DNA of 20,008 nucleotides from a virus, in the IMG/VR virus record IMGVR_UViG_3300017751_004372, positions 1-20,008 of that record; one strand, 5' to 3'. Numbering within the stretch: position 1 is the stretch's first letter; each line of letters opens with the position of its first letter. The notes below the pieces were generated by a model. The model did no database searches and had not been told where the DNA came from. It was given only the letters and a program-made list of their open reading frames with translations. Position numbers and translations under genes: made by a program. This document shows positions 3,672 to 20,008 of the stretch, one piece after another.

Positions 3672-5240
3672 TTATGGCCTATATTGTAGTGTAATTAAAA
3701 TTTCAACACCGCCCGAATTATATCCTGGCAAGTATTCATAAGTTTTATCTAGTATATCTCTTATTGTAGCAGATAGCAAGTAGTTAGGTGCAATTTCTGA
3801 TTCGATCTTATAATCAAGTGAACTTACATTATCTAACATTGCTATTCCATCATACGGTCCAGGCTTTCTGTCGAACAGTCCTGTATATGTAAATGACAAT
3901 GTATAATTATCTGCTTGATGTATGCTGTTGACAATTGCTTTGTACTTCGCAACTCTTGGTTGATCTGAATCAGTGTAGCCTAACTCGTAGCCTATGAATG
4001 TATCTAAGTAATCAAACGTCATTGAGTTGTTATATCTTACACCTTGTGTATCATATGAACCAGTATTAACAAACTGAGAAGAGGCAAAACTATAATCAAT
4101 GCCTTCAGAGAAATGATAATTGAAATAAGTTAGATTACCATAACCTAATTCATACCCTAATGCTTCCTCAGGATCTAAATTAAAGTTTGGCGCAGTCCAT
4201 GCATCACCATTTAACTCATAAAGAGTTGGATTACGATAAGATGTACCAGCACTAATAAAGAAGTCTCCTGATTCATAACCAATTCTACCTACTGTAGTAT
4301 CTTCTGTTATACGAATACCTATATTAGTATTAGTGAAGTTAAATAAAGCATAAGCAGAGATATTGTTCTGTGACATATCTTCATACTTTTCATATTCAAC
4401 CGTTCCACCATAGAGATGATTACCAATAGTGTGTCTTGTATCAACGTATGCTCTTTCAGCATCAGATGAGTAAGTCTCTACACCTTCTGTTTTATACTTT
4501 GCATCATTGAATGAATAACCAAATGTATAGTTATCATTTCTTACTGATAAACTTCCTTTAGTGCCTAACTGAGAACAATCATTTGACTGTGAGAAACTTG
4601 CTGTATAACAATTGTCGTAATCATAATCATACGAGGTTGCTGACACATTTGTAGTGAACTCACCTGTATCAAATTGACCTTTAGCAGTCATGTTTAAATA
4701 ATTGTCACTTTCATCATTGTCACTCCTGACACTACCATTGTCTACATTAAAGTAGGACAAATTAAAACCCTTAGCAGTGTGTGACATAAACTGATGTTTA
4801 TCACCTAGTCTTACCACAGAAACGTCTTTAGATAAATCGTCTTTAATAAAGACTGTGCCACCTAAACTTCCTGAACCATAAAGTACACTGTTGACTCCAT
4901 TGACAACTTTAATTGTCTCACTGCCTGTTGCATAATCATGTCCAAAATCATACCAACCACTACCAGCATCATTAGCAGGTACGCCATTTCTGAATACACT
5001 AGTGTGTATTGTTTGTGTTCCTCTTTCAGTGTAACCAGAAAATCCACCATAGCCGCCTGCTTGTGTTGCTTCTGGAATAAGTGATTCTAATAATAGCACG
5101 TCAGTACTAGGATTAGATTCTGATTCATATACAGTAGTTCCTACAACTACAACTTCTTCTACTTCTTGTGCTTCAACAGTCGCAACACCTAATACTAAGC
5201 AAATACTCATTGCTAGTTTGTTCATCGATCTAACTTTCAT
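3672..5240 (-). CDS. TonB-dependent outer-membrane receptor encoded by the phage
   Basis: The protein has a signal peptide (basic MKVRSMNK, hydrophobic core to about residue 21, cleavage likely after VEA or AQ). A TonB box EVVVVGT follows at 29-35, then a plug domain to about 137 with the family hallmarks FRNGVPAND (83-91) and VNGVNSVLYGSGSLGGTV (113-130). The rest alternates short aromatic beta strands and ends GVEILITLQYRP. The family imports siderophores, cobalamin or glycans across the outer membrane using TonB energy. At 522 residues it is short: the barrel is about 380 residues, against over 450 in BtuB. The final residue is Pro instead of the usual aromatic. GGAGG overlapping the end of the upstream gene, 11 bases before the ATG, is a good ribosome site. 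UvsW starts four bases after it. It is intact and in frame, embedded in the phage operon. Substrate cannot be told from sequence. It could be a nutrient importer, a receptor decoy or an exclusion factor. Confidence 0.88.
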   Translation of the reverse strand: MKVRSMNKLAMSICLVLGVATVEAQEVEEVVVVGTTVYESESNPSTDVLLLESLIPEATQAGGYGGFSGYTERGTQTIHTSVFRNGVPANDAGSGWYDFGHDYATGSETIKVVNGVNSVLYGSGSLGGTVFIKDDLSKDVSVVRLGDKHQFMSHTAKGFNLSYFNVDNGSVRSDNDESDNYLNMTAKGQFDTGEFTTNVSATSYDYDYDNCYTASFSQSNDCSQLGTKGSLSVRNDNYTFGYSFNDAKYKTEGVETYSSDAERAYVDTRHTIGNHLYGGTVEYEKYEDMSQNNISAYALFNFTNTNIGIRITEDTTVGRIGYESGDFFISAGTSYRNPTLYELNGDAWTAPNFNLDPEEALGYELGYGNLTYFNYHFSEGIDYSFASSQFVNTGSYDTQGVRYNNSMTFDYLDTFIGYELGYTDSDQPRVAKYKAIVNSIHQADNYTLSFTYTGLFDRKPGPYDGIAMLDNVSSLDYKIESEIAPNYLLSATIRDILDKTYEYLPGYNSGGVEILITLQYRP

Positions 5241-11198: not shown

Positions 11199-12530
11199 AT
11201 GTACATAAATTCATACATGCGACTATCGATTGCATTTGCACTTTTATTTATTGCCATGGCATATACGCCAAATATTTCTGCACAGGCCACTGGCACCTGT
11301 ACAGCAGGTACCGAGAATTGTGAGGCAAGTACTTCTACAAGTACTACTACAAATACGAATACCAACACCTCGACTAATACTAACACTAATACCAATACCT
11401 CTACTAATACCAACACGAACAATAATACCAATACTAACACCAATACGAACACCAATACCAATACCAATACCAACACTAATAACAATACTAATAATAATAC
11501 TTCGACTAGTACCAATACTAACACGAACAATAATACCAATACTAGTACTTCGACCAATACCAATACGAATAATAATACCAATAATAACACAAACAATAAT
11601 ACCAATACTTCAACAAGTACCAATACCAATACCAATAACAATACGAATAACAATACTTCGGCTAATACCAATACTAATACGAACAATAATACCAATACTT
11701 CAACAAGCAATAATACCAATACCAATAACAATACCAACAATAGTACGGTAAACAGTACCTCGAATAACACCAATACGAATAACAACAATTCTACTATTGA
11801 CCAAAATGTAAATTCTAATAGTACTTCAAACAATACTAACACGAATAACAATAACACGACCAGTAATAATACCAATAACAATAATAACACTTCTACTAGT
11901 ACAAGTGACTCTAATGTGACCACTAACAATACCAGTAAGAATGAAAATAACAACACCAACACAAACAATAACACCAACATAAACAAAACTGATCAAACTA
12001 TTAAACAGGAGATCACAACTAAGGCACCACCAGCAAGTGCGATTGCACCGAGTATCGGGTCTAGTTATTCACAAGATTTATGTACAACAGGTGTGTCTGG
12101 AGCGTTTCAGGGTCAAGTGTTCGGTTTATCAGGTGGTAAGTCTGTTAGAGATATGAACTGTGAAAGAATTAAGTTGTCCAAAACAATATATGATATGGGT
12201 ATGAAAGTAGCCGCAGTATCATTAATGTGTCAGGATCCTAGAGTATTTCAAGCAATGGAAATGGCAGGAACACCTTGTCCGTACATGGGTGCAATTGGAC
12301 CAGCCGCTTCTGACAGATGGGAAAAGAATGAAGACAGACGTCCTGATCAAAAGAAAGGTGTTAAGAGTAAAATCTTAGGCGTATTCAGTTCTGACAAAAT
12401 TGAAGTTGACCAAATATCAAACGTAACTGCTGATGAAGCCGCTTATTTAGAAAAATGTACTAGACCTGACTTTAAAGGAAGACGTAAATCTACTAAGAGT
12501 TGTGAAGCAGAATGGCACGATTCACAATAA
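11199..12530 (+). CDS. Secreted Asn/Thr-repeat protein with Cys-containing C-terminal domain
   Basis: Signal peptide at residues 1-30 (SYMRLSIAFALLFIAMAY core, SAQA cleavage site). Then comes a region of about 220 residues made almost only of Asn, Thr and Ser (44-264), mostly TN and NN pairs. After a short TKAPPASAIAPS linker is a folded domain at 270-443 with several Cys: SQDLCTTGVSGAFQGQVFGL, RDMNCERIKLSKTIYDMGMK, SLMCQDPRVFQAMEMAGTPC, then a basic end. I recall similar C-terminal domains next to Asn/Thr/Ser-rich segments in other marine T4-like phages, with no known function. AGGA lies nine bases before the ATG. A second ATG at 11217 (MRLSIAF) would also give a signal peptide. It overlaps the next gene by 19 bases. 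It probably acts in the periplasm, at the cell surface or on the virion. Confidence 0.85.
   Translation: MYINSYMRLSIAFALLFIAMAYTPNISAQATGTCTAGTENCEASTSTSTTTNTNTNTSTNTNTNTNTSTNTNTNNNTNTNTNTNTNTNTNTNTNNNTNNNTSTSTNTNTNNNTNTSTSTNTNTNNNTNNNTNNNTNTSTSTNTNTNNNTNNNTSANTNTNTNNNTNTSTSNNTNTNNNTNNSTVNSTSNNTNTNNNNSTIDQNVNSNSTSNNTNTNNNNTTSNNTNNNNNTSTSTSDSNVTTNNTSKNENNNTNTNNNTNINKTDQTIKQEITTKAPPASAIAPSIGSSYSQDLCTTGVSGAFQGQVFGLSGGKSVRDMNCERIKLSKTIYDMGMKVAAVSLMCQDPRVFQAMEMAGTPCPYMGAIGPAASDRWEKNEDRRPDQKKGVKSKILGVFSSDKIEVDQISNVTADEAAYLEKCTRPDFKGRRKSTKSCEAEWHDSQ
11328..11990 (+). repeat. Low-complexity AAY ACN repeat tract coding for Asn/Thr
   Basis: About 660 bases of degenerate hexamers of the AAYACN type (AATACC, AACACT, AATACG), interrupted by AACAAT, ACTTCG and AGTACT units. 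Synonymous third bases vary (ACC, ACT, ACG; AAT, AAC), so the amino-acid pattern is kept while the DNA is not a perfect tandem repeat. Both Asn and Thr stay while codons drift, which argues for protein-level selection. The tract may still change length by recombination. Confidence 0.9.
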
Positions 12531-15499
12531 TATCATTACTATTGATGCTACCCATGTTTGCGGTAGCACAATACACTCCTCCTGACTACAATGAGTCGAA
12601 TGCTGACGGCACCAATACCATTTACTCAGTTACTGGAGATTACGGAGATTTATATGATTTGACTCGTAGTGGTCTGACTGGTGTGTCAGGTTGTACCAAT
12701 GGTCAATTTAGTGATGACAGTGGTTGTAATGTAAGAATGGAATTTGGTTTTTCATGGGAGTGGCATAACGACTCGTATACTGCCGCAGTAATGAGTACGA
12801 ATGGTTGTCTTAAATTAGTAAAAGAAAGTTACACTATTGGTAATTGGAACAGTTTGATGTGCTACGACTACCTACCAAATCAATTAGGTAGTGGAGAAGA
12901 AGGTTATACTAAACATGTAACTGATACTCTTTTTCCCTTTTATACTGACTTGATTGGGGGAAACAGTAACAGTGCATTATTATATAAAGCATTTGATGAT
13001 TATGCCATATTCGGTTGGTATAATTTAAAAGAATACAATAGAGCATCAGAAAACAGTTTTGAAGTTTACATATTTGATTACAATGACTCTAGTGCAAAAT
13101 GCGGAGACAGTAATACAAGAATAGCCTGTACTGATTCAGAAAGAGCAGAAGTAAACAAACCTGACAACTATGGATTTTTGTACGGTGATTTAGATATCAT
13201 TCAACATGATGTTTTGATCGGAGAACAAAAAAGCAATACAAACTATACTCAATATCTATTTTATGATGACAACACAGATAACTTAGGTGATGGTAGTGTT
13301 GACAATACTTTTGATGATATGGATCAAGGGTACATAGAAGACGGTGGAGGTATATTATATTCAGAAGCAGACGGCGAGCCCGTTCAGTGTCAAAGCAATC
13401 CTTTATATTCAACAGATTGTTTATTGTATGATCTAGCATATTTAGAATATCAATGTAATTTAGATTCACAATATGATAGTGGATGTGAGTTATATGAAGG
13501 AAATGAAGTAGATCAAGGGTTGATGTGTGAAATTGATCCATTGTATGATCCAAGTTGTCCCGGGTATGATGCCGCAATAATGGCTACTAGTTCAGGAGGT
13601 TACAATCCAAGTACAGGATTAATTACTGATCCTAATACTGGAGAACAATACAATACAGATGGGTCTGTATACAATGATGGTTATGTCTATGATGACGGCG
13701 GTGTCAATGGTGACTTCGGTGATGATCCTTGGATGGAAGGTGGTGTATATGATCCTAGACTTGATCCTAACATCTCATATGATGACTTGAACACAGAACA
13801 ACAGATGTTAGTTGATCAAGGTTTATCTCCGCAAGATGCTATGTTTGTTACAATGGGAAATGAACAAATAGCCGCATTAGGTGAAGATCCATTAGCAGTA
13901 CAATTCAACGGACATAGACCAGGCGAGTATGTATTAGATGCTGTAGGTGGATTAGAAAACTATGATACTCAATTACATGATACTGCAATGCAACAACAAT
14001 CACTTGAATGGGATCCTAATGGTAACATTGACACACTTACTGCTGATGTTTGGGCAACTGAAGAATTTCAACAACAAGAAACAGAACGATTAGAGGGTAT
14101 GGTTGAAACATACGGAGACGATTTTTATTCGTTCACAGACCAAGATTGGTATGAACATGATGTTGCAACATATGGACAAGAAGAAGTTGATCAATGGCAC
14201 GAAAACATAGAATTTGATGAAGAAGGCCAAATCGATTGGGACACATTTGTTGAAGGTGCTCCTGAAGAAGAAATTTGGATAGCACAAAATGATGAGTTAA
14301 TGCCTGATTACACTGAAGAAGAAATCTTTGTAGAATCTGATGAAGTATTTGAACTTATAGTAGAAGATGAGGCATTTGAAGAATTAATTAGTGAAGCAGA
14401 ATTAGAAGAATTAACTGCTGACGAATCTACTGAAGAAATAAGAGCAGAGGAAGTGATCGAGGAACAAGTATTAATCGTAGAAGAAGAACAAGAAGAAGTC
14501 CGTGAAGAAATAGCACAAGAAGAAGTACGTGTAGAGAAAGAAGCAGAACAGGCTGTTTCAAGTTCTGGCTCGTCTTCTAGGTCAAGACCTTCTTATCAAA
14601 GTGTTGCTATCTCACAATTTGTTTCTGAAGTCTCAGATGATGCACAAACTGCCAATGTCATTGAAGATGTAATCAGTGACGGTGGAGCCTCTGCGTCAGT
14701 ACAAGTTGATTCAGGTGCATCACAAAGTTTTGCAGGACAAGACGGTAGTAGTTTTAATAACACTGGTTCACAAGCAGTTGCTAGTTCATCTAGTAGTGAT
14801 TCAACTGGTGCAATCGCAGACAGTTCAAGTCAACAACAATTTGAACAAGTAACTGGTCAAGTAGACACTGCTATTGATGTCTCTAGCACGTCTGTAGACG
14901 TTGTACAGACTTCTGCCTTTGAAGTTGCTGTACAACAACAAGAAATGATGCAAGAAGAACAGTTATTTGTGGAAAACTTCGATGACGGTACTGGTGGAAT
15001 TAGTAGTACTGACGTACAGTTTGAAGATAGTTTAACTGAAGCATTGGCGACTGGCACAGGATTGACTGAATTTTTAAGTCAACAAGCACCAAACTTTCAA
15101 CGTTTTGAAGTACAGAACTCAGTACAAGAACAACGTACTACAGAAGCAGTTGAGAGTTTAGCAGACTCTGTTGGCGCTACAGTTGCACAAGCAAACTTAG
15201 AGGCACAACTACAGAATATACAAGAAGGCGAACCTACTGATGAGGGTGGGTATGCTGACCAAACGATTGCTGTTGCCTATATAGGTTATACAGCAGGGTT
15301 TAGTGCTTACACAGGTGAGCAAGTATATAGTCAAGGAAATGCAGGCTTCTTTGACAAAAAACAAATGCCAGATGGTAGGATAGATGACAACAAAATGGGA
15401 TTCTATCGTATGGCTGGCAACACACAAGAAAAATTGTATAAGATGGTTCTTATGCAATATGGAATTAATCCAGATGAAGAAACACAGGAGCAAAAATAA
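12512..15499 (+). CDS. Large secreted acidic protein with NIDO-like domain and Cys repeats
   Basis: A 995-residue protein. Signal peptide 1-19 (FTIISLLLMLPMFAVA). Residues about 60-255 resemble the NIDO (nidogen-like) pattern: TLFPFYTDLIGG, YAIFGWYNLKEYNR, ENSFEVYIFDYN, GFLYGDLDIIQHDVLIGE. Residues about 292-353 hold three copies of a unit C-x3-P/S-x-Y-x3-C-x2-Y. A Gly/Tyr/Asp region follows. Residues about 580-685 are extremely Glu-rich and likely helical. About 685-775 is Ser/Gln-rich. The last 85 residues (DQTIAVAYIGYTAGFSAYTG, GFYRMAGNTQEKLYKMVLMQ) look folded and conserved. NIDO domains are extracellular adhesion modules in animals and bacteria. The role here could be a virion decoration, a fibre-like adhesin or an envelope protein acting on infected cells. 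It is coupled to both neighbours (TAATG at the end). Confidence 0.85.
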   Translation: MARFTIISLLLMLPMFAVAQYTPPDYNESNADGTNTIYSVTGDYGDLYDLTRSGLTGVSGCTNGQFSDDSGCNVRMEFGFSWEWHNDSYTAAVMSTNGCLKLVKESYTIGNWNSLMCYDYLPNQLGSGEEGYTKHVTDTLFPFYTDLIGGNSNSALLYKAFDDYAIFGWYNLKEYNRASENSFEVYIFDYNDSSAKCGDSNTRIACTDSERAEVNKPDNYGFLYGDLDIIQHDVLIGEQKSNTNYTQYLFYDDNTDNLGDGSVDNTFDDMDQGYIEDGGGILYSEADGEPVQCQSNPLYSTDCLLYDLAYLEYQCNLDSQYDSGCELYEGNEVDQGLMCEIDPLYDPSCPGYDAAIMATSSGGYNPSTGLITDPNTGEQYNTDGSVYNDGYVYDDGGVNGDFGDDPWMEGGVYDPRLDPNISYDDLNTEQQMLVDQGLSPQDAMFVTMGNEQIAALGEDPLAVQFNGHRPGEYVLDAVGGLENYDTQLHDTAMQQQSLEWDPNGNIDTLTADVWATEEFQQQETERLEGMVETYGDDFYSFTDQDWYEHDVATYGQEEVDQWHENIEFDEEGQIDWDTFVEGAPEEEIWIAQNDELMPDYTEEEIFVESDEVFELIVEDEAFEELISEAELEELTADESTEEIRAEEVIEEQVLIVEEEQEEVREEIAQEEVRVEKEAEQAVSSSGSSSRSRPSYQSVAISQFVSEVSDDAQTANVIEDVISDGGASASVQVDSGASQSFAGQDGSSFNNTGSQAVASSSSSDSTGAIADSSSQQQFEQVTGQVDTAIDVSSTSVDVVQTSAFEVAVQQQEMMQEEQLFVENFDDGTGGISSTDVQFEDSLTEALATGTGLTEFLSQQAPNFQRFEVQNSVQEQRTTEAVESLADSVGATVAQANLEAQLQNIQEGEPTDEGGYADQTIAVAYIGYTAGFSAYTGEQVYSQGNAGFFDKKQMPDGRIDDNKMGFYRMAGNTQEKLYKMVLMQYGINPDEETQEQK
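13385..13572 (+). repeat. Three-copy Cys-pair protein repeat inside the 995-residue gene
   Basis: Three units of about 20-24 residues: CQSNPLYSTDCLLYD, CNLDSQYDSGCELYE and CEIDPLYDPSCPGYD. Each has C-x3-[PS]-x-Y-x3-C-x2-Y, with paired Cys able to form one disulfide per unit after export to the periplasm. The DNA of the copies differs, so this is an old protein-level repeat. Confidence 0.8.
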
Positions 15500-16351: not shown

Positions 16352-16555
16352 CTATTTGGTATGTGGGGGTAATTTTGCTTCCACAAACCATTCATGTATT
16401 CGTTTAACTGGATTGTATTTTTTGAATCTTAACTTTTGATTATTAACAGTTAAGTTTTTTGTCTTAATAGCAGTGTAATGATAAGTGTGAGAGTTTCTAG
16501 TCTCACACTCTGGTATCATGTAGACTTTCGATTGTTTCTTTTTCTTGTCGGCCAT
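16352..16555 (-). CDS. rpmG: Ribosomal protein bL33 homologue
   Basis: A 67-residue basic protein. Residues after the lysine-rich start follow bL33: KVYMIPECETRNSHTYHYTA, KTKNLTVNNQKLRFKKYNPV, KRIHEWFVEAKL. The core pattern H/F-x-Y, K.N, KL.F+KY+PV.R.H..F.EAK is the bL33 signature, and length is near the cellular 55. bL33 sits at the 50S E site near the tRNA acceptor end. Only one Cys is present, so this is the zinc-free type. Extra residues at the start and end (MADKKKKQS, PPHTK) are not in typical cellular copies. It starts eight bases after the stop of the cysteine micro-peptide and ends four bases from the opposing gene. The phage may tune or replace host ribosome components. The call rests on remembered family sequence. 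Confidence 0.78.
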   Translation of the reverse strand: MADKKKKQSKVYMIPECETRNSHTYHYTAIKTKNLTVNNQKLRFKKYNPVKRIHEWFVEAKLPPHTK

Positions 16556-16562
16556 CTATCTC

Positions 16563-16613
16563 TTAGCAACAAGTGCAGTTACAACATGTACAGCATTCGC
16601 ATTTAGTATTCAT
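16563..16613 (-). CDS. 16-residue cysteine micro-peptide, metallothionein-like
   Basis: The frame reads MNTKCECCTCCNCTCC: eight of sixteen residues are Cys, in CxCCxCC and CxCC patterns. It has the best ribosome site nearby, AAGGAG six bases before the ATG, placed 18 bases after the stop of the 880-residue gene. Its TAA is seven bases before the bL33 ATG. The site has no better use, since the bL33 start has only a weak one, so the peptide is probably translated. CxC/CC patterns bind soft metals such as Zn, Cu or Cd in metallothioneins. It could instead be a leader peptide sensing cysteine supply or tRNA-Cys. The neighbouring 880-residue protein carries a similar eight-Cys cluster. Confidence 0.7.
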   Translation of the reverse strand: MNTKCECCTCCNCTCC

Positions 16614-16631
16614 GTTTATCTCCTTAACTCT

Positions 16632-19274
16632 CTAAATTTTGATGTTTCTTATGATGTCGAGCAAATCATCACCTTCTTGTATGCTCTTCCGCTCTTGTAC
16701 CTGATTTGCGTTTTGATTATACTTGTCATTATTTCCATCATCGTCAGCACCAACGTTTCCATCTGGTGAGTTTTCGGCTTCATCGAGTTCGTCCCATGCA
16801 AATGCTTCTTTAAGTAAAGCATCAACACCTTTCATATCTTTCTTATCATAAAGATCGCCTAATTCTACGTATAGTTTAGAATTAATTGTTCCTTTTGGCT
16901 TCACTGCATTTGCTATTTTCTGAGCCATTTTTTTATCAATGCCCTTAAATCTTTCCATTGCTCTTTTGACTAATGCTGAATTATCTGCTTCATATACATC
17001 TTCTGGTTCATCAGCAGTGATCTCGTCCATAAATTGGCCTACTTGACCGCCTATGCCTTCTGTTGGCATATTATCAGGTCTATGATCTTTTCTATCTGCA
17101 GGATCACCATAATCAACGACTTGATCTTTAAGTTCATCAAAATCTATTACTATTCCTTCATCTCCTACAGCAGAAATTGTTCCATCAGAGTTATGACTAA
17201 TTGTATACTCATCACCGTTTCTTAATAGAATTATATCACCATCAGATAATGCATCATATTCTTCATCTTCAAGCATTGCTTTTTTTGGCTCTGCACTTTC
17301 TGCGCCAACTAAGTCACCTACTTTAGCAGGCCTACCTTTAGTCTTACCAGTGTTTCTCCATTGACCTGCTGGTCCTGTTTTGAAATGTCCAGCAAATGTT
17401 TGTCCGCCAGATTTAGTTTCTGATAGCCCTTGAGTCTTATCAAGTACATTTTTAACTGACGGGTGATCTGATAATCCTTTCTTAATGCCTTCGATTGCTT
17501 TAATTGCACCTGACATATTACCGTCTTTGTATCTTTTGTCATTTGCTATACCAAATGCCATTTTAATTTCTTTATCAGTAAAACCTTTGTTGTCTTTTTC
17601 TTCAGCAACTCGTTGGTCTCTAGGGTTTATGTTTGGTTGTCTAGGTTTATCATAAGGGTTTGCTAGTTCCATTCCTTTAGCAATCATACCTGGTAATGAC
17701 AAGGATGATTTTGTGAGCGGTGTTCTGGTTGTTTTGTCTTTACTTAATTCTTTTTCTGCGGTTGCAATTGCATCATCAACAGTATTAACTGTTAGTGGTT
17801 TAGTGTCACCAGCGAGGTAGGCATTATAACGTTGTTCAGTGGCGATTAATATATACCACTCTCTATCTGATTCTGAATCAAATCCTTTTTGTAACTGTAA
17901 TTGCTTCTTACGGGCTCGTATTTTTTCTTGTGCGTCCTGCACTAGTTTTATTCTGCTAGGTTGATTCGTAGTCTGCTTATGGATACGGAAGATTTCTTTG
18001 TCTGCTATACCTGCTCCTTTCTTTGTCATCGCTACCTTATCAGCAATTTGATGGGCTTCTTCTAATTCACCAGGCTTAGATCCAAAGTATGCATCCATTT
18101 CACTATCGATAGTATCTGGCTTATTGTCAGAGATGTTTTCTTCAAGTTTTGCATTGCAATTACAATGTTCACAATCTGGTGAGCATCCACAGTCTTCTGC
18201 TTTTACATCTGCTCCACAACATTTGGCTGAGCAATGTGTATCTCTTTTTTCTTCTTCTGTGATTTCTGTTATACCTCTAGCCCATTGATCTAACTCATTG
18301 ACTTCTTCAATCTCGTTGATGATGCCACTGTTTAGTCTGTTGAGAATAGGTAAAACACTTTCGATTCTTGGATCAATTGTTCCTTGTGCAAACATTTCAG
18401 CAATACTTGATGAATCACCATCGTCTTCCATTAATGGCGGAGTCCATGATTCAAAGTAAGCATTATAGCCTCTATGACTTCTCATCTTTTGCAAAGATTC
18501 TCTTAGTGATTTATGATGATTGACACCTTCTTCTATTAGTTGTGCCACTGACTCATTAAATTCACCTCTACGAGTAGCACGAACAAAGCCAGCCATCTTA
18601 GTATATTCTTCTACTAATGAAGTGATGTGCTTACCACGATCATCATAAGGAGTTCCACCTTCTGCTACGTGTCTACCATATACTCTTGCAATGCCAGGCA
18701 TTCTAGTTGGGACAGCAAATCTTTCGCCTTCAGTATTCTCTACAAAGATTTTATGAACGTTTCTCCAACGTTGCTCACCTTCACCGATTTGTCTATCATG
18801 TTGAATAACAACTTTTACATTTGGTATATTATCATTGTATGAAGTTGTTTTATTAACTGCATGATAACCTTCATTAGTTACTTCTTTCATATCTTGCCAT
18901 TTCCGTTGCGTCATATCATCGTTTAAATTAGACATGTCTTTTAGTTCAAAAGACAGTAGTTTACGACCTGCCCATTGCTTTAATTGTTTTATTAGTCCAT
19001 GCCATGAATCGTCATATTCTTTTCCTGGAGTTTTTCCAGGAGGGCTTGATGCTACATCATCACTATAATAAATTTCTAAATTTTTTGCTTTATTGATTGT
19101 TGCCCATACCTTTCCGTAATTTTCACCGTCTTTAACGAAGTCAAATTCAAAAATATCTGCTTCTTGTGGTACTGGGAGTTTCTCATTTTTTGAGTTCTTA
19201 GCCACAGGATTGTAGCCATGCGTCTTTAAGAGGTCGTATAAACGTTTATTAAATGATTCCTGATCGATTGCCAT
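16632..19274 (-). CDS. Large terminase-linked phage protein with eight-Cys cluster
   Basis: An 880-residue protein, mostly charged and helical with no signal peptide. N-terminal parts include GYNPVAKNSKNEKLPVPQ, then ELKDMSNLNDDMTQRKWQDM. A well-ordered region follows at about 150-285 (FAVPTRMPGIARVYGRHVAE, GGTPYDDRGKHITSLVEEY, HRGYNAYFESWTPPLMEDD). Residues about 346-376 hold eight Cys (HCSAKCCGADVKAEDCGC, SPDCEHCNCN). A beta-rich patch lies near 690-720 and acidic linkers near the C-terminus, ending DDLLDIIRNIKI. It follows the terminase by 17 bases with AAGAGAT before the ATG. Large proteins in this place in marine T4-like phages are usually unnamed and suspected to be virion or head-interior proteins. 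That is context only. Confidence 0.75.
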   Translation of the reverse strand: MAIDQESFNKRLYDLLKTHGYNPVAKNSKNEKLPVPQEADIFEFDFVKDGENYGKVWATINKAKNLEIYYSDDVASSPPGKTPGKEYDDSWHGLIKQLKQWAGRKLLSFELKDMSNLNDDMTQRKWQDMKEVTNEGYHAVNKTTSYNDNIPNVKVVIQHDRQIGEGEQRWRNVHKIFVENTEGERFAVPTRMPGIARVYGRHVAEGGTPYDDRGKHITSLVEEYTKMAGFVRATRRGEFNESVAQLIEEGVNHHKSLRESLQKMRSHRGYNAYFESWTPPLMEDDGDSSSIAEMFAQGTIDPRIESVLPILNRLNSGIINEIEEVNELDQWARGITEITEEEKRDTHCSAKCCGADVKAEDCGCSPDCEHCNCNAKLEENISDNKPDTIDSEMDAYFGSKPGELEEAHQIADKVAMTKKGAGIADKEIFRIHKQTTNQPSRIKLVQDAQEKIRARKKQLQLQKGFDSESDREWYILIATEQRYNAYLAGDTKPLTVNTVDDAIATAEKELSKDKTTRTPLTKSSLSLPGMIAKGMELANPYDKPRQPNINPRDQRVAEEKDNKGFTDKEIKMAFGIANDKRYKDGNMSGAIKAIEGIKKGLSDHPSVKNVLDKTQGLSETKSGGQTFAGHFKTGPAGQWRNTGKTKGRPAKVGDLVGAESAEPKKAMLEDEEYDALSDGDIILLRNGDEYTISHNSDGTISAVGDEGIVIDFDELKDQVVDYGDPADRKDHRPDNMPTEGIGGQVGQFMDEITADEPEDVYEADNSALVKRAMERFKGIDKKMAQKIANAVKPKGTINSKLYVELGDLYDKKDMKGVDALLKEAFAWDELDEAENSPDGNVGADDDGNNDKYNQNANQVQERKSIQEGDDLLDIIRNIKI

Positions 19275-19291
19275 AGTATTATTTATCTCTT

Positions 19292-20008
19292 TTAGTTAAT
19301 CACAGCAAAGAACGGCAAGGGTGCAACCATTTCATCATGGTCACGCATATGCTCTGTCAAATCACTATGGAAGTCTGTAATGTCTTGCAATATACGTACT
19401 ACAAGTAATGTAGCCATTACTAAATCATCGTTGTCTCCTATCTTAGCGGCATAACTGCCACCAGATGCAACAAATGTTTTTAATTCACTGATCAATGCTT
19501 TACTTTTAACATTCATTTTCTTGCTTTCCATCAATGTTTTCATCTTAGCACATGCCGCAAGTTTTACTTTTTGTGTTGTGTTATATCCTCTACGTTTTTT
19601 ACCCTTTTCACTTAAGAAGATACCTTGAATGTTTGATTCACCATACTCTGATAATGACACTAAAGCCGCTTCTCCGATCGAATTGTTTTCTAGTGAGTAG
19701 TAGATGTTATTTGGTTCACCAGTTATTTCTGCAATATGTTGTGTAATCTGTCCTAGTAATTTAATTTGTTGAGGAATGTCAGTTTTATTATCTTTCCATT
19801 CTCCTATTTGAGTAGTAGTGTTTGCTTCAAAGATTTGTATAGCGGCTGGGTCTCCACCTGTACCTAATGACGGATCTAGTCCTAATACATAGACCATATC
19901 CTTCTTGGGTTTTTGAAACCATCTGACTTGTCCCATTCTATTAACAGGTTCTACTGATTCTAACATTATTAACGTATTAGGATTAATAAGTGTTTCGTCT
20001 GCGATTAA
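19292..20008 (-). CDS. 17: Large terminase subunit, nuclease domain (5' part cut off by right edge)
   Basis: The frame is open to the right edge, so the ATPase half lies outside. The visible 238 residues form the RNase H-like nuclease domain of a gp17-type packaging motor. YVLGLDPSLGTGGD supplies the first metal Asp, YYSLENNSIGEA the catalytic Glu, and IGDNDDLVMATLLVVRIL the last Asp. KGKKRRGYNTTQKVKLAACA is the region just before the late helices, as in phage terminases. The domain cuts concatemeric DNA at the start and end of packaging. It reads into the 880-residue gene and the cysteine peptide/bL33 pair. An internal ATG at 19966 is not the true start. Confidence 0.9.
   Translation of the reverse strand, partial: LIADETLINPNTLIMLESVEPVNRMGQVRWFQKPKKDMVYVLGLDPSLGTGGDPAAIQIFEANTTTQIGEWKDNKTDIPQQIKLLGQITQHIAEITGEPNNIYYSLENNSIGEAALVSLSEYGESNIQGIFLSEKGKKRRGYNTTQKVKLAACAKMKTLMESKKMNVKSKALISELKTFVASGGSYAAKIGDNDDLVMATLLVVRILQDITDFHSDLTEHMRDHDEMVAPLPFFAVIN

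Follow-up and report, generated by a model that had tools for sequence, protein, structure and literature searches.

A 16-residue peptide that is half cysteine is encoded immediately ahead of a bL33-like ribosomal protein gene in the window, the 20,008-nucleotide stretch of viral DNA analyzed here (IMG/VR record IMGVR_UViG_3300017751_004372). It belongs to a recurrent family of micropeptides found in marine T4-like phages and their kin, and the preferred reading, to which a probability of about 50% is given, is that the micropeptide is translated and would fold around metal, acting as a buffer or carrier in the manner of a very small metallothionein, and that its gene is a dispensable cassette. 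The features on which the argument rests are the following:

16352-16555, minus strand: bL33-like ribosomal protein of 67 aa with one Cys (Pfam PF00471, 24.2 bits, just under the cut-off of 25 bits; NCBIfam rpmG_bact, 20.9 bits, also just under its cut-off)
16563-16613, minus strand: micropeptide coding sequence MNTKCECCTCCNCTCC, stop codon included (from the frame and at least about 58 distinct homologous peptides in IMG/VR)
16620-16625, minus strand: Shine-Dalgarno (SD) sequence AAGGAG, 6 nt before the micropeptide ATG (from the sequence and the SD-to-ATG spacing of the family)
16632-19274, minus strand: 880-aa protein without a family match, directly upstream and 18 nt before the peptide ATG, with homologues in relatives L001-L021
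18147-18242, minus strand: DTHCSAKCCGADVKAEDCGCSPDCEHCNCNAK, a module of 8 Cys within the 880-aa protein; its Cys spacing is conserved in homologues
19292-19966, minus strand: C-terminal part of a T4 gp17-like large terminase (PF17289 and phrog_36964; tblastn to T4-like and jumbo myophages)

Read 5' to 3' on the minus strand, the order is thus the end of the large terminase, the 880-aa protein, the micropeptide and the bL33-like protein. The terminase gene is probably cut off by the window end, since the frame in relatives continues past the ATG seen in the window. Because the 20-kb record encodes UvsW-, UvsX/RecA- and gp32-like proteins together with a T4-like terminase, the window is, by its gene content, a fragment of a T4-like phage with no close cultured relative. 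Neither blastn of a stretch of the window nor tblastn of its bL33 protein gave a match among cultured phages. The window also encodes a protein with a TonB-dependent receptor plug domain (3672-5240, minus strand; PF07715, 35.4 bits), an unusual cargo for a T4-like phage, and a TonB-receptor-like C-terminus lies, as judged by eye, directly 5' of the phage bL33 in L024, L025, L028 and L034-L036. On the plus strand, a secreted-looking protein of 443 aa with a long Thr/Asn/Ser repeat (TNTNTNNNT...; 11199-12530) is followed by an acidic protein of 995 aa, and a similar-looking pair is present in L127.

The micropeptide frame runs on the minus strand from 16613 to 16563 (ATG AAT ACT AAA TGC GAA TGC TGT ACA TGT TGT AAC TGC ACT TGT TGC TAA) and translates as MNTKCECCTCCNCTCC, with Cys at 8 of 16 residues. 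The plus strand at 16563-16613 reads LATSAVTTCTAFAFSIH, and nothing comparable to the Cys peptide is found there. The original prediction of a half-cysteine peptide of sixteen residues had the coordinates and the eight Cys right, leaving the strand unstated. Its well-spaced AAGGAG is found at 16625-16620, six bases before the ATG, and its placement ahead of a bL33-like gene also holds, with the bL33-like ORF starting at 16555, 7 nt past the peptide stop. In the window the Cys-codon pattern is present a single time, and 100 dinucleotide-preserving shuffles contained no match to it even when as many as 2 mismatches were tolerated; a chance origin of the Cys frame is rejected because of this null result and, as the stronger test, because of conservation in relatives. 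No T4-type late promoter (TATAAATA) was found within the window.

Relatives were gathered through bL33 alone, which introduces no bias towards Cys, and comprise 63 IMG/VR loci. Looking for short frames upstream of rpmG-like genes, as the original prediction had proposed, yielded, among the closest of these, six more loci (L002, L003, L004, L014, L015 and L020) that share an SD-led ORF after the same upstream gene, each with eight Cys; the peptides of bL33-linked relatives are MNTKCECCSCCNCTCC, MSKCTCCECCNCTCC, MKCECCSCCNCTCC and MNSKCKCCSCCNCTCC. Loci that keep the ribosome site and lose the Cys codons or the frame, which had been named as evidence against a peptide, were looked for among the bL33 relatives and not seen. 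Within the window clade, Cys codons changed at 0 of 16 first and second positions and at 3 of 8 third positions, whereas spacer codons changed at 4 of 8 first and second positions (Fisher p 0.007 and 0.03, on small numbers). L004, compared with L002, differs in the first two spacers and retains all Cys. Selection acts on a peptide at this locus, to judge from Cys codons that vary only at the third base while the spacers change; the numbers are small, and the family-wide data agree.

The gene can also be cleanly absent. L001, whose bL33 is identical to that of the window, lacks the whole micropeptide unit: its homologue of the 880-aa protein has the same terminal residues, RNIKI, and the start of bL33 follows a few bases on. 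Clean absence is likewise seen in L008-L013 and in L016-L019/L021. In L127, by contrast in location, a family member sits between genes that resemble, by eye and from their N-termini, homologues of those at 11199-12530 and 12512-15499 of the window. Given these whole-unit absences and the other location in L127, the micropeptide gene is, on comparative grounds, a small dispensable cassette able to occupy different places and gained or lost as a unit.

Beyond the bL33 loci, a motif scan of IMG/VR in which no SD was demanded returned 107 stretches. About half were artefacts of GCT repeats read out of frame within other genes, recognizable by the lack of an SD, by CCCC runs and by their position inside those genes; the remainder were short ORFs, and nearly all of the genuine members carried an SD although none had been demanded. 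Later scans included the SD in the pattern, the widest of them demanding only CxCCxCC, and the scans combined gave at least 62 distinct peptides, or at least about 58 without artefacts. The family follows the pattern M-x(0-6)-CxCCxCCxCxC(C), with 13-26 residues of which about half are Cys, and is spread over diverse viral contigs (for example, MCSCCKCCNCNCC, MSKCKCCKCCNCTCC, MNCKCCECCNCDCC, METNSCKCCKCCSCTCC, MCKCCKCCTCTCPECN, MSNSNNCKCCKCCTCECENCCD and MKKCDCCNCCDCGCGC). Little varies in the core CxCCxCCxCxC, the endings differ (CC, CPECN, CENCC or CGC), and the N-termini vary in length with the frame kept. Among 61 distinct DNA cores, TGT and TGC are mixed at every Cys column and the spacer positions hold K, E, N, D, S or T almost without exception, the conservation of Cys being partly built in by the search patterns; in the scans for CxCCxCC only, almost no genuine match among those listed lacked the later Cys. 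The genes are tightly fitted between their neighbors, with a median gap of 9 nt to the next gene (20 nt or less in 42 of 59) and of 11.5 nt to the previous one (25 nt or less in 44 of 56). Members thus have in common an SD-led ORF of 13-26 codons and a Cys spacing that stays the same among unrelated neighboring genes. Such ORFs are too short to be called by standard gene finders, and the micropeptide would be missing from most annotations for that reason, though many marine phage contigs carry it.

Cellular genomes almost entirely lack such peptides. When 84,980 bacterial and archaeal species genomes were scanned, 8 matches came up, of which six proved to be repeat artefacts; the two real ones are both in Woeseiaceae (MNDKCECCKCCKCNCC and MNNKCECCKCCKCNCC, one in each of two genomes, in surroundings that do not look phage-like). 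Real matches are present in only 2 of the 107 genomes of that family. These copies, at position 6382 of L174 (reverse strand) and position 742 of L175, are preceded by a conserved stretch, ATATCAGACTTGAGGT, and followed by the gene of a small protein that looks secreted. Woeseiaceae are a possible cellular source of the micropeptide. The core motif was found in none of six cultured or single-cell-derived Kyanoviridae (HTVC008M, Melnitz, AG-345-L05, S-SSM7, P-TIM40 and P-RSM6), and tblastn of a 22-aa member against cultured phages returned nothing, a test left nearly empty by the low-complexity filter. The primase/UvsX region of one peptide contig, L083, places it near HTVC008M and Melnitz. Across these surveys, cells rarely carry the micropeptide, whereas it turns up repeatedly in phages that are uncultured and mostly marine, where the marine habitat is taken from the bL33 and Kyanoviridae relatives and not from sample records.

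Searches of Pfam, NCBIfam, PHROGs and the PDB with E values up to 10 gave only one chance match, in PHROGs (E 8), although the shortness of the peptide weakens the test. No prior description of the peptide was found, including by a text search for motif strings among the papers listed; the phage small genes of Fremin et al. (2022) lay outside the comparison. A global small-protein catalogue has a 30-nucleotide minimum (PMC11364881), so that such ORFs could be in it, and the family may have been described before.

The neighbors of the micropeptide are not constant across the family and include bL33, packaging genes, tmRNA, tRNA and Fe-S carriers. Since they are so mixed, a single fixed regulated partner is ruled out. 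Probable terminase and head genes are among them, from a reading of the ORFs, and some neighboring ORFs have a nucleotidyltransferase-like start, FGRFNPPTTGH. Of 50 peptide contigs, 9 encode an A-type Fe-S carrier (PF01521), compared with 1 of the 50 controls (Fisher p 0.016), the controls not being lineage-matched; only some cases are adjacent, and the carrier gene is directly downstream of the micropeptide in L166 and L170. IscA/HesB-like PF01521 genes adjoin or lie near the micropeptide in L166, L170, L184, L189 and L127. Neither a metal transporter nor a promoter of the metal-regulated kind was seen next to the micropeptide gene.

A phage tmRNA was found a short distance downstream of the micropeptide in 9 of 45 loci scanned and in 0 of 45 control loci. 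The tmRNA is of the one-piece type in L184, L210, L212, L215, L219 and L220 and permuted in L065, L142 and L146; the tag peptides differ, and an apparent tmRNA 5' end is also present in L196 and L230. Phage tmRNAs are already known and rare, occurring in about 2.3% of phage genomes (PMC9004378). The link was considered as a clue to function: it is real, but it is confined to part of the contigs, and it was set aside as context.

A second Cys cluster lies close to the micropeptide in the window lineage, inside the 880-aa protein. The module DTHCSAKCCGADVKAEDCGCSPDCEHCNCNAK has eight Cys in 26 residues and one His; it gave no family match in profile and structure database searches and looks like a metal-binding insert. 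L011/L013 have a further cluster (CACGCGPKDKCTCDASCSKCDC) after the first module. The module is missing in L002 and in L014/L015, all three of which have the micropeptide, and every full-length homologue without the micropeptide retains the module. Both are present in the window, L003, L004 and L020. Since no full-length locus lacks both, the distribution is suggestive of a functional overlap between the two predicted metal-binding parts, with few independent lineages represented.

The preferred reading joins these observations as follows. The micropeptide would be translated together with the neighboring genes and would fold only around metal, under the reducing conditions of the infected cell's cytoplasm. 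Its eight thiols, in the arrangement CxCC-x-CC-x-C-x-CC, would form a small metal-thiolate cluster, most likely with Cu(I) or Zn(II). A CxCC motif in CopG binds a tetranuclear copper cluster (PMC7558416), and the micropeptide has two CxCC units, one on either side of a CCxCC. Twelve residues may be too short for a monomeric cluster, and oligomers might be needed. During infection, the peptide would buffer or carry metal like a pared-down metallothionein, presumably to the benefit of the phage, while its gene would behave as a dispensable cassette of an SD and 13-26 codons that is gained or lost whole between adjacent genes. Candidate uses are to buffer metal freed by host breakdown, to provide phage enzymes with metal or Fe-S chemistry, or to strip metal from host proteins, and the sequence favors none of buffering, supplying or stripping. 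What the sequence by itself can establish is the frame, the SD, the family, the invariant Cys spacing, the restriction of Cys-codon variation to the third base and the gain or loss of the unit as a whole. The idea of an unannotated phage metal-binding peptide was already put forward in the original prediction; it has gained a widespread family, invariant Cys spacing, hydrophilic spacers and a neighboring Cys cluster, with metal binding itself still a prediction.

Among the other explanations, the one that survives best, though it is judged unlikely, is that the thiols act chemically: a redox peptide (a disulfide donor, an oxidant sink or a zinc-stripping factor) would modify host proteins instead of holding metal in store, for instance as a take-over factor. 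The extreme thiol density fits this, as do the translation-related genes (bL33 and tmRNA) among its neighbors, and there are known effects of small phage proteins on the physiology of bacteria (reviewed in PMC11323111). However, no thioredoxin-like partner was seen, and the fixed CxCC/CCxCC spacing suits a metal cluster better than free thiols.

Somewhat less probable again is a small virion component, made with the late head and packaging genes and either disulfide-cross-linked in the particle or carrying metal into the cell. A large terminase gene is indeed nearby in the window lineage, other head and packaging genes are indicated by ORF reading, and many neighbors begin with MK(T/S)FK-like N-termini, which we take to resemble the T4 capsid-targeting sequence. 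Other members, however, adjoin tmRNA, tRNA or Fe-S carrier genes instead of structural genes, and the gene is dispensable within a lineage.

The original prediction had also offered a cysteine-sensing leader, in which a shortage of Cys-tRNA would slow ribosomes at the eight Cys codons and thereby alter how the gene that follows (bL33 in the window) is expressed. This idea is invited by a string of Cys codons directly ahead of a translation gene, and the 7-nt gap to bL33 would permit translational coupling, but it is very improbable and was rejected. The downstream genes are unrelated across the family, with no constant gene tied to the sensed amino acid, and one of them is a tmRNA and not a protein gene; most phage bL33 loci have no peptide. 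An attenuator would require a terminator or alternative hairpin between leader and gene, and none was found in the 7-nt gap setting, where the fold is ordinary (z -0.82) and there is no Rfam match. The spacer residues are also restricted, which a leader would not need. Scarcely credible is that there is no peptide at all and that a conserved DNA or RNA element reads as Cys codons by accident or the pattern is a low-complexity artefact: about half of the raw matches of the first scan were GCT-repeat artefacts, but these are easily set apart from genuine members, and the codon-level pattern, the SD at the correct spacing, the in-frame N-termini of varied length and the lack of an RNA fold all speak against it.

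A broader proposal, put forward tentatively and as somewhat less likely than the metallothionein-like role itself, is that these genes form a hitherto undescribed class of mobile phage micropeptides, each scarcely more than an encoded ligand for a metal-thiolate (or Fe-S) cluster; they would be interchangeable with the Cys modules of larger phage proteins and would let marine phages acquire or manage metal in the cell they infect. The family opens to test whether marine phages manage copper, zinc or Fe-S chemistry during infection through a 15-residue peptide, one short enough to be synthesized, so that metal binding could be decided quickly. The family would be, to our knowledge, the shortest gene-encoded Cys-cluster peptide family and the first class of metallothionein-like genes from tailed phages.

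Several known systems invite comparison. Phage-encoded bL33 and other ribosomal proteins have been described (Mizuno et al. 2019, PMC6375957), and the window neighbor at 16352-16555 belongs to the same known kind; the micropeptide, in contrast, is a separate gene, missing at most phage bL33 loci. With the leader peptides of amino-acid biosynthesis it shares a tiny ORF upstream of a gene and many codons for one amino acid, but it differs in having no attenuator, unrelated downstream genes and restricted spacers. In composition the micropeptide resembles metallothioneins, such as bacterial SmtA, mycobacterial MymT, the fungal Cu-thioneins and the animal metallothioneins, in the very high Cys content, the CxC, CC and CxCC spacing, the near absence of aromatic residues, the hydrophilic K/S/E/N/T spacers and the small size, without a His-dominated core. 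The alpha domains of animal metallothioneins contain stretches such as SCCSCC and KCSCC. No match to a metallothionein family that would point to common descent was found in Pfam, PHROGs, NCBIfam or the PDB, a test weakened by the short length. Unlike metallothioneins, the micropeptide is phage-borne, its metal binding is predicted, and its 12-residue core is two-thirds Cys and roughly half as long as the smallest fungal Cu-thioneins. The copper site of CopG shares the CxCC motif; however, CopG is a thioredoxin-fold protein, whereas the micropeptide has its two CxCC units and central CCxCC in just 16 residues, with no larger protein around them.
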